Shown: in pieces, positions 1 through 13,656 of the stretch
Layout of the letters: each line of letters begins with the position of its first letter
Numbering within the stretch: the stretch's first letter is position 1
Assembly (NCBI RefSeq): GCF_029201445.1
Contig: NZ_CP102381.1
Coordinates: 124,001-188,000, forward strand
Length of the DNA stretch: 64,000 nt
Direction: 5' to 3'
Source of the DNA: Thiomicrorhabdus lithotrophica
Lineage (GTDB): Bacteria > Pseudomonadota > Gammaproteobacteria > Thiomicrospirales > Thiomicrospiraceae
Position numbers and translations under genes: made by a program
The notes under the pieces: generated by a model
What the model was told of the DNA's origin: nothing
The model's input: only the letters and a program-made list of their open reading frames with translations
Database searches by the model: none

Positions 1-1903
1 TAGAGCTTAAATAATCCAACTGTTCTTGGCTCTCAACTCCTTCAGCGACGACAGAAATATTAAGGTTTTCGGCCATTCTCACCATCGTATCTATGAAAAC
101 ACTTCCAGAATTAGACCGGTAGTCATCTAAGAAGCTTTTATCTATCTTTAAGGTGTTGATAGGGAAAGTCTTTAAATAGGCTAACGAGGAGTATCCTGTA
201 CCAAAATCATCTAATGAGATGCTTATCCCAATACCACGTATCTTTTTCAGCAGAGTAAGATGTTTTTCTGTGTCACCCATTAATACAGACTCCGTCACTT
301 CAATATCTAAATGGCGTGGTTCAAAGTTTAATCTGTAGATTAAGTCATGTAATTCGGAGAAAAATTTGTCATGGCCGAACTGTATAGCGGAAACATTAAC
401 GGAGACAGGTAGCGTAATGCCATACTGTTTTTGCCATTCAAGCTGGTCTTGCATCGCTTGCTGTAATATCCAGTTCCCTAAAGGGATAATTAAGCCAGTT
501 TGTTCTGCAATGGGTATAAACTCTTTAGGAGATATAATGCCTTTTTTAGGATGAATCCAGCGAATTAGGCTTTCTACGCCCATTACTTTACCTGTTTTTA
601 CGCAAGTTTTAGGTTGGTAATACATTTCAAATTCATGGTTTGCTAGGGCACGTTTAAGTTCTTGCTCCATGGCAATTTCAGAAATGATTTTTTGATTAAG
701 TTGCTCTGTAAAGTAATGGACCTGGTTTTTGCCACGTTTTTTAGCTTCATACATGGCAATGTCGGCGTTTTTTAATAATGTTTGTGTTGTGTCACCATCT
801 TTAGGATAAAACGCAACACCAATACTCGCGGTAACATTGATTGGTTGTTGGCGAACGAGTTGGGTTTTGGAAAGCTTTACAAGAACCCTATCTATGATGT
901 GATTAAGCTCAAGATGGCTCTGATATTTATTGATAACCATGACAAATTCATCACCGCCAAAGCGAGCAATGATATCGTAGCCACGAACTTCTGATTGCAT
1001 TATCTCGGAAACATTGATTAACAGTTCATCTCCAACATCATGCCCTAAACTGTCATTAATGTTTTTGAAATTGTCGATATCAACAAACAGGAAAGCAAAC
1101 TCCGCATCTGCTCTGGAGGATTCTGCAATCAACCAAGTTAAACGTTCATTTAATTGATAGCGGTTAGGCAGGCCGCTTAAAGCATCCTTTCTTGAGGATG
1201 AATAGAGCGCTTTAGTTTCTTCTTCAAGGCGTTGAAAGGTTTGAACCATTGAGCTACGAATCGCTTCAAGCTCCTTAATTTTTAGAGCTTGTGGCACTAT
1301 GTCATGATAATAGGCAAACTTTCTAAGGCTTTCTAACGGCCTAATCAGACGAGAACGAAAAACCCAATACAGCAGTGCTGCAATCAAAATAGTTGGAAAA
1401 AAAGTGTAGAGGATGTAGGTATTTGTTGTTTGTGAAAAATACCCTTTTAACTCATAGTGATTTGGATAAAGGTAAATACTGAGATAGATGGGGTTGTTTT
1501 GTTCATAGACTTGAAAAGTAATTTGATGGACTTCATGGGCTAACAGTTGCGTAACTTTTTTTTCATCCATATTGGAGTGAACATGAGCATTGTGAGGGAC
1601 TCTTTTGATAGAGGGGTTAGTGCTTAATAACACTTCATGTTCTTTTGTGATAATCATCGCGTCGATGAGATTATTTTGGGCAACCTGGCGGTTAAAACGT
1701 GATTTGAAATTATTTATCGAATCGATGCCTTCGAGTTCTGTGGCTATTTGATAACTCGCTTCACCTAAAATTCGATGGAATTCATCAGTGATAATTTGGG
1801 CTTTAGTTTCTTGTTCGTTCAAATAATAAAAAGCAAAAGATGAATAAAGTCCAGCCACAATAAATAAAAACAGAAAAGCGAGGAAGCGATTAATGGTTAG
1901 CAT
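1..1903 (-). CDS. GGDEF-EAL c-di-GMP turnover protein (3' end outside window)
   Basis: The ATG is the reverse complement of 1901-1903 and about 634 codons are open to the window edge, so the C-terminus is missing. An N-terminal membrane segment (about residues 5-25), an extracytoplasmic region of about 130 residues and a second membrane segment precede the GGDEF and EAL domains. The GGDEF active site reads RFGGDEF, with an inhibitory-site RGYD five residues upstream. The EAL signature is GVESLIRW, keeping the catalytic Glu with Ser for Ala, and the later NVSA, EVTES, DDFGTGYSSL and VAEGVES motifs are intact. Both synthesis and hydrolysis of c-di-GMP therefore look possible. Its ATG directly follows the TAA of the upstream binding-protein gene (TAAATG), so the two are probably translationally coupled and may form one sensor. 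Confidence 0.92.
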   Translation of the reverse strand, partial: MLTINRFLAFLFLFIVAGLYSSFAFYYLNEQETKAQIITDEFHRILGEASYQIATELEGIDSINNFKSRFNRQVAQNNLIDAMIITKEHEVLLSTNPSIKRVPHNAHVHSNMDEKKVTQLLAHEVHQITFQVYEQNNPIYLSIYLYPNHYELKGYFSQTTNTYILYTFFPTILIAALLYWVFRSRLIRPLESLRKFAYYHDIVPQALKIKELEAIRSSMVQTFQRLEEETKALYSSSRKDALSGLPNRYQLNERLTWLIAESSRADAEFAFLFVDIDNFKNINDSLGHDVGDELLINVSEIMQSEVRGYDIIARFGGDEFVMVINKYQSHLELNHIIDRVLVKLSKTQLVRQQPINVTASIGVAFYPKDGDTTQTLLKNADIAMYEAKKRGKNQVHYFTEQLNQKIISEIAMEQELKRALANHEFEMYYQPKTCVKTGKVMGVESLIRWIHPKKGIISPKEFIPIAEQTGLIIPLGNWILQQAMQDQLEWQKQYGITLPVSVNVSAIQFGHDKFFSELHDLIYRLNFEPRHLDIEVTESVLMGDTEKHLTLLKKIRGIGISISLDDFGTGYSSLAYLKTFPINTLKIDKSFLDDYRSNSGSVFIDTMVRMAENLNISVVAEGVESQEQLDYLSS

Positions 1904-2800
1904 TTAAAGAAGGTCTCTAGTAGGGAATTCTATGCTATTCATTTTTTCAATCATTTCATCTGATAGTGTTTTGTTTAACCATTCAATATCGTTAAGAGCA
2001 GCTTTAAAATCTTTATAGCTCACTTCTTCTAAATAAGGTTTAACTACGGCGTAGTAGGCTTTTGGGTCTTGCTTTAAATCTTTAAGTGCACGACTTATTA
2101 AGCTTTTAAGTTGTTCAAAAGTTTCTCTGTTTTCCATAAAAACTTCTTTAGGAGTATACAAGGCATCCAAGACAATAATGTCCAAAGTATCTTTAGTTGA
2201 AGCAATCGTTTTAAAGCCATGTTTGGCTAGTTCAAAGTTGTAGGGAACGTAAGTAATGATAATTGTAGGTTGATTAGTTTGCTCGGTTTTTAACTGGGTA
2301 ACAATTCTTAATTGATCTTTGTTAATAAAGTTAAAGTTTTTATCATTTAACTGATTAGCGTTAATAAAGTCTTTAAAAACCAGGTAGTTAATGGAATCAA
2401 TTTCTAAAAAAACGTCAATGGTGTCTGAAGTGTTTTGTAAATCAGAAATAGACTGATTACTCATAACCATATCGCCACCATTTGAGCGATTAAACATGAT
2501 AATGGGGATTAGATCACTGTGTTGTTCATGTAGTTTTTGGTATTCATACTGTGTTCCCGCAATACCATGAAAATGCCCAGTTCGATAAGTCATCATGCTT
2601 TCACCTAGAGAAACCACATTTGAGACCTCAATATTAATTTCATCGAGCCAACCTTTATCTTTGGCATAGAAAAGAGGTGAATAACCAATCCAGGAGTTAG
2701 CCACGATTTTAATAGGTGGTTTTTGTTGGGTGCCACAGCTGTATAGTAGTACAACGATTAGAAAGAAAAGAGCTATTAATTTGTATCCTGTCTTATGCAT
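1904..2800 (-). CDS. periplasmic substrate-binding-like lipoprotein
   Basis: 298 residues. A short basic N-terminus and hydrophobic stretch end in the lipobox-like LYSC with Cys22, so it should be a lipoprotein. The mature start, IKIVANSWIGYSPLFYAKDKGW, resembles NMT1/SsuA/ThiY-type solute-binding proteins. No ABC permease or ATPase gene is nearby; the following gene, starting at the next base, is the GGDEF-EAL protein. The likely role is therefore ligand sensing for the membrane signalling protein rather than transport. This role is inference; the fold assignment rests on the N-terminal motif and overall length. The ligand cannot be told from sequence. Confidence 0.8.
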   Translation of the reverse strand: MHKTGYKLIALFFLIVVLLYSCGTQQKPPIKIVANSWIGYSPLFYAKDKGWLDEINIEVSNVVSLGESMMTYRTGHFHGIAGTQYEYQKLHEQHSDLIPIIMFNRSNGGDMVMSNQSISDLQNTSDTIDVFLEIDSINYLVFKDFINANQLNDKNFNFINKDQLRIVTQLKTEQTNQPTIIITYVPYNFELAKHGFKTIASTKDTLDIIVLDALYTPKEVFMENRETFEQLKSLISRALKDLKQDPKAYYAVVKPYLEEVSYKDFKAALNDIEWLNKTLSDEMIEKMNSIEFPTRDLL

Positions 2801-5302: not shown

Positions 5303-7495
5303 TTAGGCCTTAGTGGTGTGTTGGTATACGCCATCAAAATTGGTTGGACTATCACTAATATAGTGTTTACAGCGCTCGATGTAAATGCCATAAATTTTTT
5401 GATTTGTTTTATCTTGCCAGGTTTGTAGTTCATTAAAAATTTTAAGGGCTTCTGCAAACTGACTATTTTGATATAAAGCAATGGCTTGGTGATAGTTATC
5501 TAGCTCTTTTTTAAGTCTTTCTGTCGGTTGACCAAAGCCATGCACTTGCCAAATCTCAACAGCCTGCTTTTTTCCTTTTACGGTCACTTTGTCAATAAAA
5601 CGAAAGCTATACTCTTCTTTAAGAGCGGCTTTAGTGTATTGAGAAATATTGAGGGTTGAGCCATAAAACTTACACAAAGATTCTAAGCGAGAGCTTAAGT
5701 TTACTGTATCGCCAATGACAGTATAATCACTGCGCCCAGCACTTCCCATTTCACCGACAACGGCATCGCCGGTATTAAGACCAATGCCTATCTTGATCGG
5801 TTCAATATTTTCTTGCTTGCAGTATTTAGCCAGCTCTTCAAATAATGGGTTTTGCTTAATCTGATTATTTAAAGCGGTAAGTGCCGCTAATTGCTTAAGG
5901 CTTGCTGAAACAGCTAGATCAGCGTGGTTATTGAGTTCAATGGGTGCATTCCAGTAAGCCATGATTGAATCGCCAATAAACTTATCAATCGTTCCTTGTT
6001 TTTCAACAATAATATTAGTCATTGCTGTGGTGTATTCATTTAGAAATTGAATTAAAACTTGAGGGTTAGAGGTGGCTTCAGATAGATTTGTAAAACCTCT
6101 TAAGTCTGAAAAAAATACGGTGATTTCACGTGTTTGGCCTTGCATAATATCCAAACTTTCGTTTTTCAGGATTTCATCCATGACCGAAGAGCTTACCTTG
6201 CTGGCAAGCTTATTTTTAATGAGATCTTTCTGACGGCTTTCAAAAAAATAGTTAAAAAGGGTAGATAGAATCAAGGCAAGGATGAGTGCCGAAAAAGGCA
6301 TAAGGATATTTAGAATGATACCTTCCGTAAAAAGCATGTAATTAATAAAAAAGTACAGGCCTGTAAAGCTCGATATTGCAGTTAGGATTAAGAATATAGC
6401 GCCTAAAGAGTTAAATACTAAATAGCTTAATAAAAAGACACTCACAATAAATAACAAATCAGCGGCTTCAATCCAGTTGGGTTTAGATAAAGTGTCACCC
6501 TTTAAAATATTATCAATCACATTGGCATGTGCTTCCACGCCAGGATAGGCGTTATCAAATGGCATGGAGCGTAAATCTAATAAAGCGCTCGCAGAAGTTC
6601 CAACTAGAAGCCATTTTCCTTCAATGGCTGTTTTATCATATTGATTGTTAAGCACGTCTGCTGCGCTAATGTAGGTAAAGGTGTGACCAGGGCCTCGATA
6701 ATTAACAAACAGCTGGCCGTAACGATTGGTGGGTATCAAAAGGTCTCCAATTTGTACGGATTCAACACCTGTTTCTGAGCTTTTCACTTTTATGGAAGGA
6801 CTCTGGTGTGCCACTCTTAACATTTCTAAAGCTAGCGAAGGATAGATAATGTTATTGAATTTCATAATTAATGGGATATTTCTAACCATGCCCGATGGGT
6901 CGGGTAGATTGTTAAAAAAACCACTGCTATACGCTTTGTCTTGGATTGCTGGTGTATTAGGTAATACGCCTAGAGGTTCAAGTATATAAGATTGACCGGA
7001 GGTGTTTTGCTCAATCACAATGCCAGGAATTGAAGGTGCTGTGGCTTTAGGCGTTTTATCATTCATCATAAAAACATAGCCCAAAATAGTGGGGGTGTTG
7101 CCAACGGTATTGCCCAATATCTCATCATAATCTTCAGGGTTGTCTATGTTCAGAGAATGCTTTTTATTTAGATACGCAGGAGAGGTTTTATCTTTTTCTG
7201 AAAACACGATATCTAGACCGATAATGCCTGCGCCATCATCACTGAGTTGTTGTATAAGTTGGGCGACTAAGTTGCGTTCCCATGGCCATTGTCCAAACGT
7301 TGCCAAGCTTTTTTCATCGATATCAATAATGACGACTTCGCCGGTAGTGGGTATCTCACCACGAATTTGAAAAAAGATATCGCGAAGGGAATTATCTAAA
7401 GATTGTAGCTGGGGAGGTGAAAAAACAAATAAAAAGGCCATAAAAAAAGCACCAATCACACTTGTAGATAAGGTGATGAGGTGCTTTTTATTCAT
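5303..7495 (-). CDS. CHASE2-domain class III adenylate/guanylate cyclase
   Basis: 730 residues. A membrane segment at about 6-26 leads into an extracytoplasmic CHASE2 sensor (about 30-335, with VVIIDIDEKSLATFGQWPW). Three or so membrane segments follow (about 343-417), then a cytoplasmic class III nucleotidyl cyclase domain (about 455-650). The two metal-binding aspartates are visible in FFSDLRGFTN (Asp464) and DKFIGDSIMAYW (Asp509), and GDTVNLSSRLE is the usual late motif. Residues about 660-710 look like a short TPR-type tail. Whether it makes cAMP or cGMP cannot be settled by eye. It sits 31 nt after a FecR-domain gene, and FecR plus CHASE2-cyclase neighbours are a recurring bacterial arrangement, so an envelope signal is the likely input. 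Confidence 0.93.
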   Translation of the reverse strand: MNKKHLITLSTSVIGAFFMAFLFVFSPPQLQSLDNSLRDIFFQIRGEIPTTGEVVIIDIDEKSLATFGQWPWERNLVAQLIQQLSDDGAGIIGLDIVFSEKDKTSPAYLNKKHSLNIDNPEDYDEILGNTVGNTPTILGYVFMMNDKTPKATAPSIPGIVIEQNTSGQSYILEPLGVLPNTPAIQDKAYSSGFFNNLPDPSGMVRNIPLIMKFNNIIYPSLALEMLRVAHQSPSIKVKSSETGVESVQIGDLLIPTNRYGQLFVNYRGPGHTFTYISAADVLNNQYDKTAIEGKWLLVGTSASALLDLRSMPFDNAYPGVEAHANVIDNILKGDTLSKPNWIEAADLLFIVSVFLLSYLVFNSLGAIFLILTAISSFTGLYFFINYMLFTEGIILNILMPFSALILALILSTLFNYFFESRQKDLIKNKLASKVSSSVMDEILKNESLDIMQGQTREITVFFSDLRGFTNLSEATSNPQVLIQFLNEYTTAMTNIIVEKQGTIDKFIGDSIMAYWNAPIELNNHADLAVSASLKQLAALTALNNQIKQNPLFEELAKYCKQENIEPIKIGIGLNTGDAVVGEMGSAGRSDYTVIGDTVNLSSRLESLCKFYGSTLNISQYTKAALKEEYSFRFIDKVTVKGKKQAVEIWQVHGFGQPTERLKKELDNYHQAIALYQNSQFAEALKIFNELQTWQDKTNQKIYGIYIERCKHYISDSPTNFDGVYQHTTKA

Positions 7496-7526
7496 ATTTA
7501 ACGCCTAATGCAATTTTAATATAGTG

Positions 7527-8795
7527 TTAAGGTTTAATGCCTTCGGCTTCAGTGCTTATGGCATTGAAAACGCCAGTTGAACTTTGAGCTTCTCCGGTTA
7601 TTTCATGTTGACCTTGCAGGTCAAAGTTTCCAGAAACTTCTTGACCATTCGGTCCATAAAATTTGCCGTCGATCGTGCCATTTATGCCATCAATGTCTGA
7701 ACCACCTTTAACGGTAAAATCGGTAAGGGTAAAACCATCGTTGGTCACGGCGCCTTCAAATTTAGTATCCCAGCGTATCTCTTCTGCTGTACCGGCATTA
7801 AAGGTATAGTCAATATCACCATCTATAGCCGTTGAACCTCCATCAAAGTCTACTTTGATTTTGATATCTCCAGTAGCAAGGTTGTTATTTGAGTCTAAGG
7901 CCAGGACGCCACCATTGTATTCAGCTCTTGTATTGGTGCCAATGTAGCCATCAAGAACAGACGGATCTGTTTGAGGTGCCGCTTCAATCCAAACACTGGT
8001 TACTTCAGCCGTTTCTTCGTTTAACCAATAACCATAAGAGGTATAGGTGGCTGAACCTTCAACTATTTTGGCATTTTCTACTGGTGTTTCAGTGGTGGTT
8101 TCGTCGACAATATCAGCGGTAACATCCGTTGTATCTCCAGTGGTGTTTTCAGTGTCATTCTCAGTCGGCGTTTCTGTAGAAGCATCACTGCTTGTCTGCG
8201 AAGAGCTCGTTTTACTTTCAGTATTGTCAGCTATGGCTAAGGTCGCAATAGTGGCTTTGCCTGAGCTGTGATTAAAGCTTAATTGTTTATCTTTAGGCAC
8301 ATCATAGGTGGTACCTGTTGCGTTGTCTGTAAGGTACGTTGCACCTTTAAACGTTGCTAATCGAGTGAATTTATCATTGGTAACGACAGTAAATGTTGTT
8401 CCACGAATACCGATAGTGGCTGTTTTTGTTTTAATCTTGAAGCGCGCTGGAGCCAATTTTCCAATTTTGCCAGAAACGGATTTTAGGAAGCCTTTGGTTA
8501 AACCAAACTCAGCTTGAGAGTTTGTGAGTGATCCAAATTCGTATTTATTCACAATAAAGTTGGTGTTTGAACCTAATGTAACGGTAGTTTTATCGTTAAA
8601 AACAATTTGTACCTGCGTTTTATCACCAGTCTGTATAACGTCTTTTTCTTCAATCTTTAGCCCTGCTTTAGCCATGATTTGTGTTTGGTTACGTTCAATT
8701 GAGGCTGTGCCGCTAACGGCTGTAATTTGTCCAATAGAAGCATAAGCTTGAATGCTGAATAACAGCGTAAACAAAAATAATATAGTGTGCTTCAT
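7527..8795 (-). CDS. secreted FecR-domain protein with TbpB-like C-terminal barrel (copy 1)
   Basis: 422 residues with a type I signal peptide ending near AYA-S and no lipobox cysteine. Residues about 20-150 are a FecR domain, including IGIRGTTFTVV. A Thr/Ser/Glu-rich linker (about 195-245) leads to a C-terminal domain of about 170 residues. Its strand GKFYGPNGQEVSGNFDL matches the FYGP-x-E-x-x-G-x-F signature of transferrin-binding-protein-B-like 8-stranded barrels. Such barrels are typical cargo of Slam (type XI) outer-membrane translocons. The TPR-barrel gene immediately upstream ends one base before this ATG. A close paralogue lies at 10337-11545. FecR here is not next to a sigma factor, so iron-dicitrate regulation is unlikely. 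Confidence 0.82.
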   Translation of the reverse strand: MKHTILFLFTLLFSIQAYASIGQITAVSGTASIERNQTQIMAKAGLKIEEKDVIQTGDKTQVQIVFNDKTTVTLGSNTNFIVNKYEFGSLTNSQAEFGLTKGFLKSVSGKIGKLAPARFKIKTKTATIGIRGTTFTVVTNDKFTRLATFKGATYLTDNATGTTYDVPKDKQLSFNHSSGKATIATLAIADNTESKTSSSQTSSDASTETPTENDTENTTGDTTDVTADIVDETTTETPVENAKIVEGSATYTSYGYWLNEETAEVTSVWIEAAPQTDPSVLDGYIGTNTRAEYNGGVLALDSNNNLATGDIKIKVDFDGGSTAIDGDIDYTFNAGTAEEIRWDTKFEGAVTNDGFTLTDFTVKGGSDIDGINGTIDGKFYGPNGQEVSGNFDLQGQHEITGEAQSSTGVFNAISTEAEGIKP

Positions 8796-8796
8796 T

Positions 8797-10140
8797 CTAA
8801 TTCCCTTCGCTAAAACGTTTGATTACATTTAAGGTCGCTAAATCTTTTTGGTATTCATAAGGCTCTTGATTGGACTGGTTAAAGGTCCGATTAAGGCTTG
8901 CTTGAATCGCCAGGCTTTTATTGATGTTTTTTGTGAGGTTGATAGAGAGTCTTCGGTTACTGTCTTCACGTTGCTCAAAAAAGAACGGATTCTTGTCGCT
9001 ATAACGCACTTCTTTAATGCCTATGCTACCACCTAATTTCCAATCGTGCGATAAGCCATAGTTTATACCGAGTTGAATACCTATGCTGTCGTAATCTACA
9101 TCATATAAGTCACCAGAGTCTTTACGTTCACGCTGAGCTTTAGATGTTAGGTTAATTAAAAGGTTGGAATTGATTTTCTGTTTCACGGCGATAGAAATTT
9201 CGCCTTGTGTGGCATCTTTTTCTTGTTTTTCTGCTTGTAGATAATGCTTTTTAAGGATTTTACCTTGTAGGCTCACCATCTGATTTGGCTTAGTTTTAAA
9301 TACCATCTTAGGAGCTAGACCATAGCTTTCTAAATAGGATTCTTCACCATAATGCATGTGGCTGTATTCTAAAGCGGCTTCTAAACGGTTTTTTCCTACA
9401 GGAAAAACCAATGCAGGCGTATAGCGTGTAAATAGGATGTTGTAATCATTCTGTTCTGATAGCGTTTTTGCATAGAACAATAAATTGTTTTTTATACCAA
9501 ATCCATATTCTTGTAACGCATCGTAGTAATGATCTACCACCACGGTTTCTTGATGAAAGTTGCTGCCAATAACTTCATTAGCATTGTCAAAATCAACCCC
9601 GAATGCGGGTACAAACCAGCTTTCGGATTCAGGCGTTGTATTGATGTTGCTGTCATGTCCAACCCCAAAAATAACGGCCGCGGATAGCGTTGATTTGCTT
9701 CGTGTACTTTTCATTTTAGTAAGGTACTGGTTGACGTTTCTAGCCACAGCTGGAGGAATATCCTCTTTTAAAGCATCTTTAAAATAACTTTCGGATAAAG
9801 CATAGCTGTTTTGTTGAAAATGGAGCTTTCCTAACTCAAGCTTACTGCGTGTATTCGTTGGGTCTACAATCAATATACGTTCGTAGATTGAAATGGCTTC
9901 ATCTAAATTATTTAAAAGAGTGGCAGATCGTGCTAGATAAAAATTGTAATTAAAGGAATTGAAATCTGACTGAACCAGTTTTTCAAAAGCGTTGTAAGAG
10001 GCCTGGTAGTCTTTGGCTTTAAAAAGCTGTAAGGCTTTAATATAAGGATCATCATTTGCCTGAATATTTTGGCCGATTGTGAGACCAGCAAACAATAAAA
10101 TCAGGAAAAGTGCTTTTTTGGGAAAGCTAAGCGTAAACAA
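8797..10140 (-). CDS. TPR plus outer-membrane beta-barrel protein, Slam/T11SS-like (copy 1)
   Basis: 447 residues. The start is TTG with AGGA 7 nt upstream, and it is needed to include the basic N-terminus of the signal peptide. TPR-type helices occupy about 35-145 (for example LDEAISIYERILIVDPTN). From about residue 155 to the end the sequence alternates like outer-membrane strands and begins with VGHDSNINTTPE, a start common in DUF560/Slam-type barrels. The N-terminal TPR, C-terminal barrel order and an adjacent TbpB-like barrel protein suggest a type XI secretion translocon. A different TPR-porin family, such as a PgaA-like exporter, is the main alternative. The paralogue is at 11557-12894. 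Confidence 0.72.
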   Translation of the reverse strand: MFTLSFPKKALFLILLFAGLTIGQNIQANDDPYIKALQLFKAKDYQASYNAFEKLVQSDFNSFNYNFYLARSATLLNNLDEAISIYERILIVDPTNTRSKLELGKLHFQQNSYALSESYFKDALKEDIPPAVARNVNQYLTKMKSTRSKSTLSAAVIFGVGHDSNINTTPESESWFVPAFGVDFDNANEVIGSNFHQETVVVDHYYDALQEYGFGIKNNLLFYAKTLSEQNDYNILFTRYTPALVFPVGKNRLEAALEYSHMHYGEESYLESYGLAPKMVFKTKPNQMVSLQGKILKKHYLQAEKQEKDATQGEISIAVKQKINSNLLINLTSKAQRERKDSGDLYDVDYDSIGIQLGINYGLSHDWKLGGSIGIKEVRYSDKNPFFFEQREDSNRRLSINLTKNINKSLAIQASLNRTFNQSNQEPYEYQKDLATLNVIKRFSEGN

Positions 10141-10336
10141 ATATTAATCCTAAAAAAATAAATATCATCAAAACGATTATCAAACAGTGGTTTTGGTGAT
10201 TTGAAGTAATGTAATTAAGATTTATTATAATCTTTAAATCTCTAGGATGTGATTATCATTTTTTAACTTAGATTTAATTGAGTTTATTATAAATTAATAT
10301 AACCAGCTGTATCCTTGGTGAAAATAGTGCGATTTT
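10141..10336. other. 196-bp AT-rich gap with imperfect hairpin between the two FecR/TPR-barrel pairs
   Basis: No gene fits here. An 11-bp inverted repeat with one mismatch pairs 10164-10174 with 10190-10200 around a 15-nt loop. On the minus strand it is followed by a T-rich run toward 10151, so it could be a weak terminator after the upstream FecR gene or an attenuator before the downstream TPR-barrel gene. The stem is AT-rich and the call is weak. Confidence 0.3.
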
Positions 10337-11545
10337 TTATTGGATACCAGCCGCTGATGTTGCATTGTAAGAACCACTCGAGTTTACATCAGCACTGGTT
10401 GAATCTTGTCCTGATAAAGAGAAGGTGCCTGCTAGTTCTTCGGCATTAGGCCCATAAAATTGTCCAGAAATCTCGCCAGATATATTACTCACATCAGAGG
10501 TTGCAGGCGTAAAGCTGTTGAAATCAATACCATTTTGGTTAACATCTCCTGCAAAACTTGTATTCCAGTGAGTTCCTGCAATTGTATATTCTAAATTGCC
10601 TGTTACCGGATTCACCGCATTAAAATTAATATTTACAAGAATACTACCGCTCCCTTTGTTATTTGCATCATCAAAGGCGACAACATTTCCACTATATAAT
10701 GCGTTTGGGGATGGGCCTATGAAGTTAATTGCAGCTAAAATTATATCTGGGTCGGTTGTACTAGCTCCTGGAGCAGCTTCTGCCCAAACATCAGTCATTT
10801 CTCCATTTGAGGCATTGGCCCAGTAACCGTAAGAAGAGTATGTAGCCGTATTTACGGTAATTTTTTCAATGTTATTATCAAGACTGTTGTTGATGGAGCT
10901 AGTTTGAATGGTTTCATCGGCATTAAGCACGCTTTGATTTACTTCATCCAATGTCTTGGTGGCATTTCCTGTCAGCATTGCCGAATTCAGCTCAGTTTCA
11001 ACTATTTCAACCTCTTTGGTTTCACTGTTAAAGCTTAGCTTTTTACCTTTTGGTACTTCGTAAATTTTACCTGTTTCATTATCTCTTAAGTAGGTTGCGC
11101 CACTGAGTGTGATTAGCTGGGTAAAGCGATCATTCGTTTCTAACGTGAAAGTTGTTCCTCTAATGCCAATGGTCACATCTTTGGTTTTGACTTTAAAGCG
11201 GTTAGGCGCAAGTTTACCAATTTGTCCTGTCACCGACTTCATAAAGCCATTAGCTAAAGAGAATTCAGCATGAGAATCTGAGATACCGTTAAACATATAA
11301 GCTTGGATGATAAATTTTGTTCGCTCACCTAAGGTAATCACGGTTTTGTCGTTAAATATCATCTGTAATTGAGTGTTATCGTCGGTGATGATTATGTCTT
11401 GAGTTTCGATTAATGAGCCAATTTTGGCAATTAATGTTTGCTGATTTCTTTCAATTGTTGCAGAGCCATTGATTGCGGTAATTTTGCCGATTGATGCAAA
11501 AGCTTCAGTAGTGACAAATAAGATGAGTAATAGTATCAGTTTCAT
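10337..11545 (-). CDS. secreted FecR-domain protein with TbpB-like C-terminal barrel (copy 2)
   Basis: 402 residues, the same architecture as the 7527-8795 product: a signal peptide ending around AFA-S, a FecR domain (about 18-150, with IGIRGTTFTLE), a linker, and a C-terminal domain carrying GQFYGPNAEELAGTFSL, an even clearer TbpB-like barrel signature. The RBS AAGGAG is 7 nt before the ATG, and the upstream TPR-barrel gene ends 11 nt before. The two FecR proteins share motifs along their length but differ at many positions, pointing to an old tandem duplication of the pair. The expected location is the periplasm or cell surface, depending on whether the partner barrel exports it. Confidence 0.82.
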   Translation of the reverse strand: MKLILLLILFVTTEAFASIGKITAINGSATIERNQQTLIAKIGSLIETQDIIITDDNTQLQMIFNDKTVITLGERTKFIIQAYMFNGISDSHAEFSLANGFMKSVTGQIGKLAPNRFKVKTKDVTIGIRGTTFTLETNDRFTQLITLSGATYLRDNETGKIYEVPKGKKLSFNSETKEVEIVETELNSAMLTGNATKTLDEVNQSVLNADETIQTSSINNSLDNNIEKITVNTATYSSYGYWANASNGEMTDVWAEAAPGASTTDPDIILAAINFIGPSPNALYSGNVVAFDDANNKGSGSILVNINFNAVNPVTGNLEYTIAGTHWNTSFAGDVNQNGIDFNSFTPATSDVSNISGEISGQFYGPNAEELAGTFSLSGQDSTSADVNSSGSYNATSAAGIQ

Positions 11546-11556
11546 AACCGGGCTCC

Positions 11557-12894
11557 TTAGAAATGCTTAACGATATTAACTAAGAATACATTTTTAGTAT
11601 ATTCATAAGCGGCTTGATTTGAGCTGTTTTGAATACGTTCAGCTCTTGTCTGTAGTGACAAGTCTTTGTCTAGGATTTTAGAGACATCGAGCGCAATTTT
11701 TATATTATTATCTTGGCGTTTGTTTAAGAAAAATACACTATCATCAAGATAGTTTTTTTGAAACGCTCCAAGCTCTCCGCCAATTCGAATACCTGTAGAG
11801 TATTGATAATTAACGCCAGCTTTTAAGGCAAACATATCATTAGAAACGTCTGTAAGATTACCAGACTCTTTGCGCTCTTGAATGAGCATCGTATCAATAT
11901 GCCAAGCCGTTCGATTGTTGAGCAATTTTTGATAAGTAACCCCTCCCTCAACGTAATTAGCATCTCGACCTTGATCTTCAGTTCTCAAATAATTTTTCTT
12001 AAAAAGCTTTAAGTGCGCTGACAGTTGAGCGCTTGGGTTAATTTGATGTGTGATGTTAGGGGTTAAACCATAATTTTCTAAATAAGCTTTACCACCATAA
12101 TACATAGTATCGAACTGTATAGCGGCATCTATTTTGTAGTTTTTTGTGGAAAATACTAAGGACGGCTTGTAGCGAAGGTACAAAATGTTGTAGTCGCTTT
12201 CTCCTGGGATAGATTTGTTATAGGCCAAAAGACTGTTTTTAATGCCAAAGCCATATTTTTTTGTACTGTCATAATAGTGGTTTAACAAAGCCATTTCTTG
12301 ATGGTAAGCGTTTTCAACTGTTTCAGTTGTGTTAGTAAAGTCTGCGCCAAAGACAGGTACAAACCAAGAAGAAGCGTAAGGGGCGCTATTTACATTTGTG
12401 TCATAGCCAAGTCCAAATACTAAAGCACCATTAAGGCTTCCTAATCGAGACTGTTTTTCAATTTTTTCTAGATAGCGCGAGATATTAAGGCGAACGGTTT
12501 CAGGAATTCGGTCGTTTTGTGCAGAGCTAAAATAGCTTTTAGATAAAGTATATTCTTGTAGTTGATAATAGAGTTTTCCAAGCTCTAGCTTACTGCGAAT
12601 ATGATTGGGTTGAAGTATTAATATTCGTTCATATGCAGTGATGGCTTCTTTGTGTTTGTTAAGCTTAGCAGCGGCTTGAGCCAAATAAAAACTGTAATCT
12701 ATTGAGGAATAGTCTTGTTCCACTAATACAGAAAATGCACGGTAAGCCTCTTGGTAGGATTGCTCATCATACAGTTTTACAGCTGCGGTAAATTGACTTG
12801 AATCGGCAAGCAGAATAGGGGTGTAGCTCAAGCTAAATGCACTTGTAAGTAGAGTAGCCAGCGTACTATTTTTTATATTTGAAACTAACCGCAT
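11557..12894 (-). CDS. TPR plus outer-membrane beta-barrel protein, Slam/T11SS-like (copy 2)
   Basis: 445 residues, a paralogue of the 8797-10140 product. It has an N-terminal signal peptide, TPR helices (about 35-145, with KEAITAYERILILQPNH) and a C-terminal barrel beginning around LVFGLGYDTNVNSAPY. Conserved shared strands include GFGIKNSLLAYNKS and the terminal aromatic-ending stretch LVNIVKHF, as expected for an outer-membrane barrel. It is the first gene of the eight-gene minus-strand cluster and has a good promoter candidate about 45 nt upstream. The RBS is weak. Function as a translocon for the adjacent FecR protein is inferred from domain order and pairing. Confidence 0.72.
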   Translation of the reverse strand: MRLVSNIKNSTLATLLTSAFSLSYTPILLADSSQFTAAVKLYDEQSYQEAYRAFSVLVEQDYSSIDYSFYLAQAAAKLNKHKEAITAYERILILQPNHIRSKLELGKLYYQLQEYTLSKSYFSSAQNDRIPETVRLNISRYLEKIEKQSRLGSLNGALVFGLGYDTNVNSAPYASSWFVPVFGADFTNTTETVENAYHQEMALLNHYYDSTKKYGFGIKNSLLAYNKSIPGESDYNILYLRYKPSLVFSTKNYKIDAAIQFDTMYYGGKAYLENYGLTPNITHQINPSAQLSAHLKLFKKNYLRTEDQGRDANYVEGGVTYQKLLNNRTAWHIDTMLIQERKESGNLTDVSNDMFALKAGVNYQYSTGIRIGGELGAFQKNYLDDSVFFLNKRQDNNIKIALDVSKILDKDLSLQTRAERIQNSSNQAAYEYTKNVFLVNIVKHF

Positions 12895-12999: not shown

Positions 13000-13656
13000 C
13001 TAATTGTGTTGGTCAAAAGCCCATTCAGGAAAACCATCGGGCATTCGGCTGGCTTGGATGTCTTGTTTGGTGAGGTTTTCTACTGCTTCGTAAGACCAAA
13101 GACAGTAAGGCCCTCGGCAATAAACGACTACGGGTTTGTCTTTAGATAAAGTGGAAATGTTTTGATTAAGTTGTTCTATTGGAATATTAACAGCACCTTC
13201 GATATGACCTGCTTGATATTCATCTTGAGGACGGACATCCAATAAGGTGACTTGGTTATTTTGCAGTGCTTTTTTAAGTTCTTTTGGATTAAAAGGCATA
13301 AGAGGCGCGCGAGGATGGAGTTTTTCATTCAGAATGGTGGAAACTTCTGTCATTTGGTTTTCTGCTACTTGGCGCATGGCTTGAATAAGCGGCACAATAG
13401 CTGGATCACTTAAACGATATATTCTAAGTGCGCCATTAACCTCATTGATTACCAGGCCTGCTTGTTTGAGTTGTTGCAGATGTTTGGATACATTCGCCAC
13501 ACTCAAACCGAGTTTTTTGCTTAATACTTCAACCTGTGTAGGTGCTTGAGCCAAAATGTCTAAAATCAGTAAACGGTTGGCGTGACCTAAAGATTTGCCC
13601 ATCTGCGCGAGTTGTTCAAACAAACAAATCTTTAAGTTGGTTTCACACGTATCCAT
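13000..13656 (-). CDS. ArsR-family regulator fused to a rhodanese domain
   Basis: 218 residues. The N-terminal ~95 residues are an ArsR-type winged helix (SVANVSKHLQQLKQAGLV is the recognition region). Residues about 115-218 are a rhodanese domain with LLDVRPQDEYQAGHIEGAVN and the active-site loop VVYCRGPYC, Cys180 being the sulfur-carrying candidate. Additional cysteines near the N-terminus (Cys4, Cys11) could take part in sensing. Fusions of this kind are known regulators in many proteobacteria and are thought to respond to sulfur or metalloid species; the ligand here is not visible. It lies downstream of the hydrolase gene on the same strand, separated by 38 nt containing the CCAGGCCTGG palindrome. 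Confidence 0.9.
   Translation of the reverse strand: MDTCETNLKICLFEQLAQMGKSLGHANRLLILDILAQAPTQVEVLSKKLGLSVANVSKHLQQLKQAGLVINEVNGALRIYRLSDPAIVPLIQAMRQVAENQMTEVSTILNEKLHPRAPLMPFNPKELKKALQNNQVTLLDVRPQDEYQAGHIEGAVNIPIEQLNQNISTLSKDKPVVVYCRGPYCLWSYEAVENLTKQDIQASRMPDGFPEWAFDQHN

Follow-up and report, generated by a model that had tools for sequence, protein, structure and literature searches.

How do inner-membrane CHASE2 cyclases learn of events beyond the outer membrane? The question is made testable by a gene set of Thiomicrorhabdus lithotrophica in which two pairs of genes, each encoding a barrel protein with tetratricopeptide repeats (TPR) and a FecR-TbpB protein, precede the gene of a CHASE2 cyclase. 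The set lies in a stretch of 64,000 nt (the window; positions 124,001 to 188,000 of contig NZ_CP102381.1, assembly GCF_029201445.1), and the host genome is one contig of 2.52 Mb. We think that the locus probably (probability about 0.6) encodes a trans-envelope receptor that serves a CHASE2 adenylate cyclase. It would be a split version of the NsrA-CyaK system of Sinorhizobium meliloti in which the FecR relay bears a cargo barrel of the type XI secretion system (T11SS; Slam/DUF560). Coordinates below are window positions unless another locus is named, and all genes of the set are on the minus strand.

Genes and domains of the locus

In the direction of transcription, the genes are TPR-barrel 2 (445 residues, 12894-11557), FecR-TbpB 2 (402 residues, 11545-10337), TPR-barrel 1 (447 residues with a TTG start, 10140-8797), FecR-TbpB 1 (422 residues, 8795-7527), the CHASE2 cyclase (730 residues, 7495-5303), an MBL-GAF-HD-GYP protein (792 residues, 5258-2880), a lipoprotein, and a GGDEF-EAL protein. 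The two pairs are diverged paralogs, with 39% identity between the barrels and 44% between the FecR proteins. A preliminary description had placed the five genes from TPR-barrel 2 to the cyclase at these positions, with gaps of 1 to 44 nt apart from a 196-nt break between the pairs and a FYGP-type signature in both FecR proteins. This was borne out: the spacings down the five genes are 11, 196, 1, and 31 nt, followed by 44 nt between the cyclase and MBL-GAF-HD-GYP genes, the signatures read FYGPNGQE and FYGPNAEE, and every domain that had been claimed scored above its Pfam curated cut-off (SlipAM PF04575, 22 bits; FecR PF04773, 24; TbpB_B_D PF01298, 26; CHASE2, 26.3; Guanylate_cyc, 21.9). The five genes stand as parts of the module, but the end point given for it does not; one to three further genes are to be added, and the MBL-GAF-HD-GYP gene belongs to the module in most relatives.

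Both TPR-barrel proteins match SlipAM, as the preliminary description had expected (29.4 bits for protein 1 and 30.4 for protein 2), and 18 of the 29 module barrels match it at E<=1e-3. Generic TPR families scored above cut-off in the N-terminal part of both proteins; TPR_Slam stayed below it (15.4 and 14.6 bits vs. 35.2). In protein 1 the TPR lies at 10047-9703 and the barrel at 9693-8806. Its structure model (mean predicted local distance difference test, pLDDT, 89) has TPR helices at residues 32-146 and the large barrel that had been anticipated; 15 strands are listed, of which 267-275 and 278-284 are possibly one broken strand, so the count is either 14, as in T11SS outer-membrane proteins, or 15. 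A search of PDB sequences with the barrel profile was uninformative on the barrel part, all 60 matches listed being TPR proteins. Elsewhere, the same genome encodes a T11SS-type barrel, and barrel 1 can be aligned with it over 369 columns. That barrel belongs to an ordinary T11SS-type pair (G000:C1:9272-11801, which is L010:4273-6802), in which the next gene encodes a protein that lacks FecR and ends in a TbpB-type C-terminus (24.5 bits, slightly below the cut-off); the pair offers a useful internal control.

The FecR-TbpB proteins scored 55.8 (protein 1) and 45.3 bits (protein 2) for FecR, and their C-termini, where a TbpB barrel had been suspected, scored 29.2 and 36.4 bits for TbpB_B_D. The two domains lie at 8642-8340 and 7934-7560 in protein 1. 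The AlphaFold model of protein 2 (mean pLDDT 72) shows a FecR domain (residues 20-165, 11051-11488), a predicted disordered linker (residues 167-224, 10874-11047, pLDDT <50), and three pedestal strands with an eight-strand TbpB-type barrel (together residues 226-396, 10358-10870; barrel 281-396). A profile of the FecR proteins matched TbpB (E 1e-13), NHBA, LbpB, and hemophilin in the PDB. By VIA-align, the C-terminus of protein 2 was closest to the NHBA C-terminal domain (Z 17.6 over 148 residues), then to fHbp and TbpB, all three of them established cargo of Slam/T11SS. The proteins are related to the NCBIfam equivalog slam_lipo (NF041636) and fall outside it (21 and 35 bits vs. a cut-off of 80). 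Read by eye, both have hydrophobic, signal-peptide-like N-termini ending in AYA-S or AFA-S and no lipobox cysteine. A role of the FecR protein as an anti-sigma regulator was ruled out, the NCBIfam model FecR (NF007296) giving 12.4 and 15.3 bits vs. 385.

The FecR domain itself resembles a retention domain. The only significant PDB sequence match of its profile was 5ix9 from the adhesin MpAFP, titled as a cell surface anchoring domain (E 8.5e-5), and Foldseek superposed the FecR domain on 5ix9 over 61 columns at 0.9 Å; in protein 2 it is the first half of the domain that is similar. We take the 5ix9 domain to be a periplasmic plug. The LapA retention model (NF033682) was matched weakly, below its cut-off, by all 30 FecR domains searched; the domain of protein 1 gave 22.7 bits against a cut-off of 50, a distant similarity. 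Among seven other FecR proteins, NsrA, the pSymB FecR protein, L119, and L096 gave no match to this model, and L133, L048, and L102 gave weak ones.

The cyclase scored 206.7 bits for CHASE2 (7444-6431) and 88.9 for Guanylate_cyc (6136-5540), and a simple hydropathy scan placed one membrane segment on the N-terminal side of CHASE2 and about three on its C-terminal side. Its class III catalytic motifs are FFSDLRG, DKFIGD, and DYTVIGDTVNLSSRL, carrying the metal-binding Asp, the substrate Lys, and the transition-state Asn/Arg. The motifs are cited for the window cyclase only, and the pattern used for the third is too strict for relatives. Judged from its sequence, this class III enzyme probably makes cyclic AMP (cAMP). 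The MBL-GAF-HD-GYP protein resembles class II cAMP phosphodiesterases in its MBL part (PDEase_II, 40 bits vs. 23.7), scored 118 bits for HD_5, and retains HAHFDH, HDVGK, and HHEKLDGSGYP. Proteins that bind cyclic nucleotides exist in the same genome; among its frames read by eye there was no clear CRP with a DNA-binding part, save a probable FNR-type protein (L136).

Distribution and exchange among genomes

We searched 63 genomes of the order for TbpB_B_D, CHASE2, and SlipAM and read 20 regions. Twelve CHASE2 loci scored above 200 bits, and 11 could be evaluated, the one in G059:C139 starting at a contig edge. The preliminary description had predicted that the pair is conserved beside CHASE2 cyclases, and indeed FecR and TPR-barrel genes directly adjoin the cyclase gene in 11 of these 11 loci, in the order barrel-FecR-cyclase or FecR-barrel-cyclase. 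A barrel gene was present in none of the eight lower-scoring CHASE2 loci that were read, and a FecR gene in one (L048). Thus, the association of CHASE2, FecR, and barrel is more than chance. An HD-GYP gene follows in 8 of the 12 strong loci. Two pairs also occur in three relatives (L035, L038, L039), while L033 has a single pair and L036 has one barrel with two FecR-TbpB genes.

A genome-wide scan with the CHASE2 region of the window yielded at least 80 loci, 78 with a readable cyclase; FecR and barrel both lay within four frames in 40 of the 78 listed. The carriers include Arcobacter, Sulfurospirillum, Sulfurimonas and Sulfurovum relatives, Nitrincola, Desulfobacterota, and a Synergistaceae bin. 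On a plasmid of the alphaproteobacterial Shinella, the barrel, a FecR protein with a Slam-cargo-like end, and the cyclase are consecutive. The cluster recurs in several bacterial phyla and is therefore probably a widespread means of informing the cell interior of what happens outside. Across 369 evenly sampled gammaproteobacterial genomes, CHASE2 and FecR were each common, and among the matches listed, only the two proteins of the window genome matched the profile as far as its C-terminal end. From these matches, the form with TbpB seems to be uncommon in the class.

The TbpB-type end of the FecR protein has been exchanged between close relatives. Between the Hydrogenovibrio-group strains G014 and G008, DNA identity over the locus was 80-94% outside one segment, and 51-62% from about codon 250 to the end of the first FecR gene; over the initial 150 nt of the following gene it dropped to 41% before recovering. 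Between G014 and G007, it was 80-84% over the last 300 nt of the swapped segment vs. 58-75% across the remaining parts of the first barrel and FecR genes. Therefore, the TbpB-type end is replaceable, as expected of an environment-facing part. The distances of the barrel, TPR, FecR, and TbpB regions also correlate beyond those of the cyclase. The partial correlation between barrel and TbpB was 0.47 after trimming and without FecR-only proteins (0.66 with them), which is comparable to barrel-TPR and barrel-FecR, and a special coevolution of barrel and TbpB is not claimed. These correlations weigh little because they are expected for co-inherited neighbours.

Around the module of the window, the 196-nt gap between the pairs (10141-10336) may hold a second promoter. 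It contains weak promoter-like matches, which together with those upstream of 12894 are modestly above shuffle level over the region; there is no terminator-like site on the minus strand within the gap, and the first 16 kb of the window gave no Rfam match. The gene immediately preceding the module, on the same strand, encodes an ArsR-type helix-turn-helix domain fused to a rhodanese domain (13000-13656). On the 3' side are two possibly associated genes: the substrate-binding-like lipoprotein (2800-1904, weak similarity to NMT1 and ABC_peri_uca) and the GGDEF-EAL protein (1903-1, with its 3' end beyond the window; the whole gene is L011:7912-9903). The same pair (window 1-2800) stands at the same position in G050 (L036:12412-15300), and it may couple the module to cyclic di-GMP (c-di-GMP). 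A multicopper-oxidase-like protein with a long tandem MDHSQHQGMNHDMPAV-type repeat is encoded 3' of the GGDEF-EAL gene (L011:5195-7234).

Other arrangements were seen during the survey. NHLP bacteriocin export genes come after the module copy on the Shinella plasmid (L133:8191-14163). In L118, L119, L121, L122, L128, and L129 (mostly Rheinheimera), a protein of 1900-2100 residues, with a lipoprotein-like N-terminus in L119, is encoded between the FecR gene and the genes for MBL, CHASE2 cyclase, and HD-GYP. An Arcobacteraceae locus (L057:8137-12812) has MBL and HD-GYP as separate genes flanking the CHASE2 cyclase gene, with no FecR or barrel nearby. In a gammaproteobacterial metagenome-assembled genome (L055:3819-10496), a CHASE2 protein, a probable PP2C phosphatase, a probable FHA protein (these middle two identified by eye), and a CHASE2 cyclase are consecutive.

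How the parts may work together

In S. meliloti, the outer-membrane receptor NsrA is genetically needed for CHASE2 cyclase signalling (PMC7529298, PMC13001267), and the response that depends on cyaK needs nsrA (PMC7529298). The sensing role that the preliminary description gave to the locus finds its support in analogy with this system. We propose that the TPR-barrel proteins, with their predicted barrel fold, would sit in the outer membrane, where each would handle the neighbouring FecR protein through its C-terminal eight-stranded TbpB-type barrel, as a T11SS handles its cargo; the family identities are consistent with this. The TbpB-type domain, outside or in the pore, would be the variable sensing end and the N-terminal FecR domain would be periplasmic, as segment swapping and the similarity to retention domains suggest. 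The FecR domain might then signal to CHASE2 in the periplasm, a step to which NsrA genetics and the order of the genes point, and the class III domain, whose catalytic residues are present, is predicted to alter its cAMP output. Finally, the domains of the downstream MBL-GAF-HD-GYP protein suggest that it would reset cAMP and provide a link to c-di-GMP.

More specifically, but tentatively, the FecR-TbpB protein could be a T11SS substrate arrested half-way: the TbpB-type barrel would be exported through the SlipAM barrel, the linker would stay in the pore, and the FecR domain would remain periplasmic and touch CHASE2. Such an arrest of cargo in the barrel is suggested by the resemblance between the FecR domain and the retention domain of LapA/MpAFP. 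If this retained-cargo topology is true, a secretion system has found a new use as a modular receptor that signals from outside to inside and whose sensor domains are naturally exchangeable.

Several points weigh against a trans-envelope receptor of this kind. With a typical T11SS cargo the entire protein would be exported, and FecR would then be beyond the reach of CHASE2. The confidence of the FecR 2 model is low from about residue 120 to 225. Several modules have FecR proteins of 213-316 residues with no TbpB domain, and thus the TbpB part is not universal. With the single NsrA sequence, hhalign found no similarity between the window barrels and the NsrA barrel, the TPR alone being aligned. 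Moreover, signal perception in S. meliloti does not require the FecR protein SMc02177, a target of cAMP/Clr (PMC5498481), and therefore some FecR neighbours may be outputs.

A possible though doubtful version of the same receptor makes the barrel alone the one that binds the ligand, with outer loops like those of NsrA; the FecR-TbpB protein would be wholly periplasmic, plug or cap the barrel, and relay its state to CHASE2. The external loops of the NsrA barrel have been proposed to bind the ligand (PMC7529298), NsrA fuses FecR and barrel with no TbpB domain detected, and the FecR-only modules fit this version as well. However, it is the TbpB segment and not the barrel that is swapped between close relatives, which points to this segment as the environment-facing part, and two FecR-TbpB proteins can share a single barrel.

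That the FecR-TbpB proteins are output rather than input is unlikely. They would be soluble T11SS cargo exported whole, and the cyclase cluster would control their expression or share their regulation. The C-terminal barrel with an adjacent gene for an outer-membrane protein is the T11SS cargo signature (PMC8406197), SMc02177 provides a precedent for a FecR protein under Clr, and in L036 and L074 two FecR-TbpB genes are served by a single barrel, which is what a transporter would be expected to do. Yet the N-terminal domain is FecR and not a handle or effector, and its conservation exceeds that of the TbpB part (mean identity 36% vs. 26%). Furthermore, FecR is fused to the barrel in NsrA, which is an input receptor, and the FecR-only members stand beside the same barrel and cyclase without a cargo barrel for export.

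A BcsC/PgaA-like role of the TPR-barrel, as a channel for polysaccharides or small molecules in a neighbourhood that is regulatory only, is very unlikely: BcsC, also TPR plus barrel, is the best fold match of the barrel model, but it and the others (CymA, OmpG, FadL) are generic matches, the ranking says little because no Slam structure is among the fold matches listed, SlipAM is above its cut-off, the homology to the T11SS-type barrel of the same genome is full-length, and no polysaccharide synthase gene adjoins.

Comparison with known systems

The trans-envelope receptor that we favour shares parts with several described systems. The LapA/MpAFP retention module (NF033682; 5ix9) is similar in that the first ~65 residues of the FecR domain align with it in sequence and fold; it differs in that the window FecR stays below the NCBIfam cut-off and that no type I secretion genes were seen adjoining. 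The preliminary description knew of no system joining these parts, a view that was not supported. A Campylobacterota cluster of CHASE2 cyclase, FecR protein, TPR protein, and phosphodiesterase was noted in 2022, and a single pathway with horizontal transfer was proposed for it (PMC9239204). The gene set is the same as in the window, but in the passages of that paper that were read the TPR protein is not termed a SlipAM-type barrel, nor the FecR protein a carrier of a TbpB barrel.

Another described system is NsrA with CyaK (and CyaD1/D2). In the annotated pSymB region, a FecR-domain gene is directly upstream of cyaK. We take this gene to be nsrA, from a 2018 study and from the size and barrel position described for NsrA. 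The protein is a single chain of 1190 residues with FecR at 66-160, TPR at about 378-587, and then the barrel region; NsrA has been described as about 1200 residues with its barrel at 600-1200 (PMC7529298). The FecR domains of the window and NsrA are homologous by hhalign (E 1.1e-8). In both systems FecR, TPR, and an outer-membrane barrel are encoded beside the CHASE2 cyclase gene, and therefore the window locus is the same domain set split over two genes. Unlike NsrA, the window has FecR and TPR-barrel as separate, duplicated genes, and its FecR protein carries a T11SS-cargo barrel.

The T11SS (Slam, NilB, HrpB; PMC8406197, PMC12282271), with which other bacteria place proteins on their surface, likewise pairs a DUF560/SlipAM barrel that has TPR at its N-terminus with a neighbouring protein that ends in an eight-stranded TbpB-type barrel, and in the window the FecR genes are 1 and 11 nt from the barrel genes. 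The putative cargo of the window differs in having a FecR relay domain at its N-terminus in place of an effector or handle, and a CHASE2 cyclase in place of TonB receptors as its partner; FecR and cyclase are absent from the main text of both papers. The locus thus offers a role for SlipAM/T11SS barrels beyond the well-studied cluster 1 and joins the T11SS field with that of CHASE2/NsrA cAMP signalling. What is new here is the T11SS identity of the parts, the equivalence of split and fused forms, the swapping of TbpB segments between close relatives, and the finding that the FecR domain resembles the retention domain of LapA/MpAFP.

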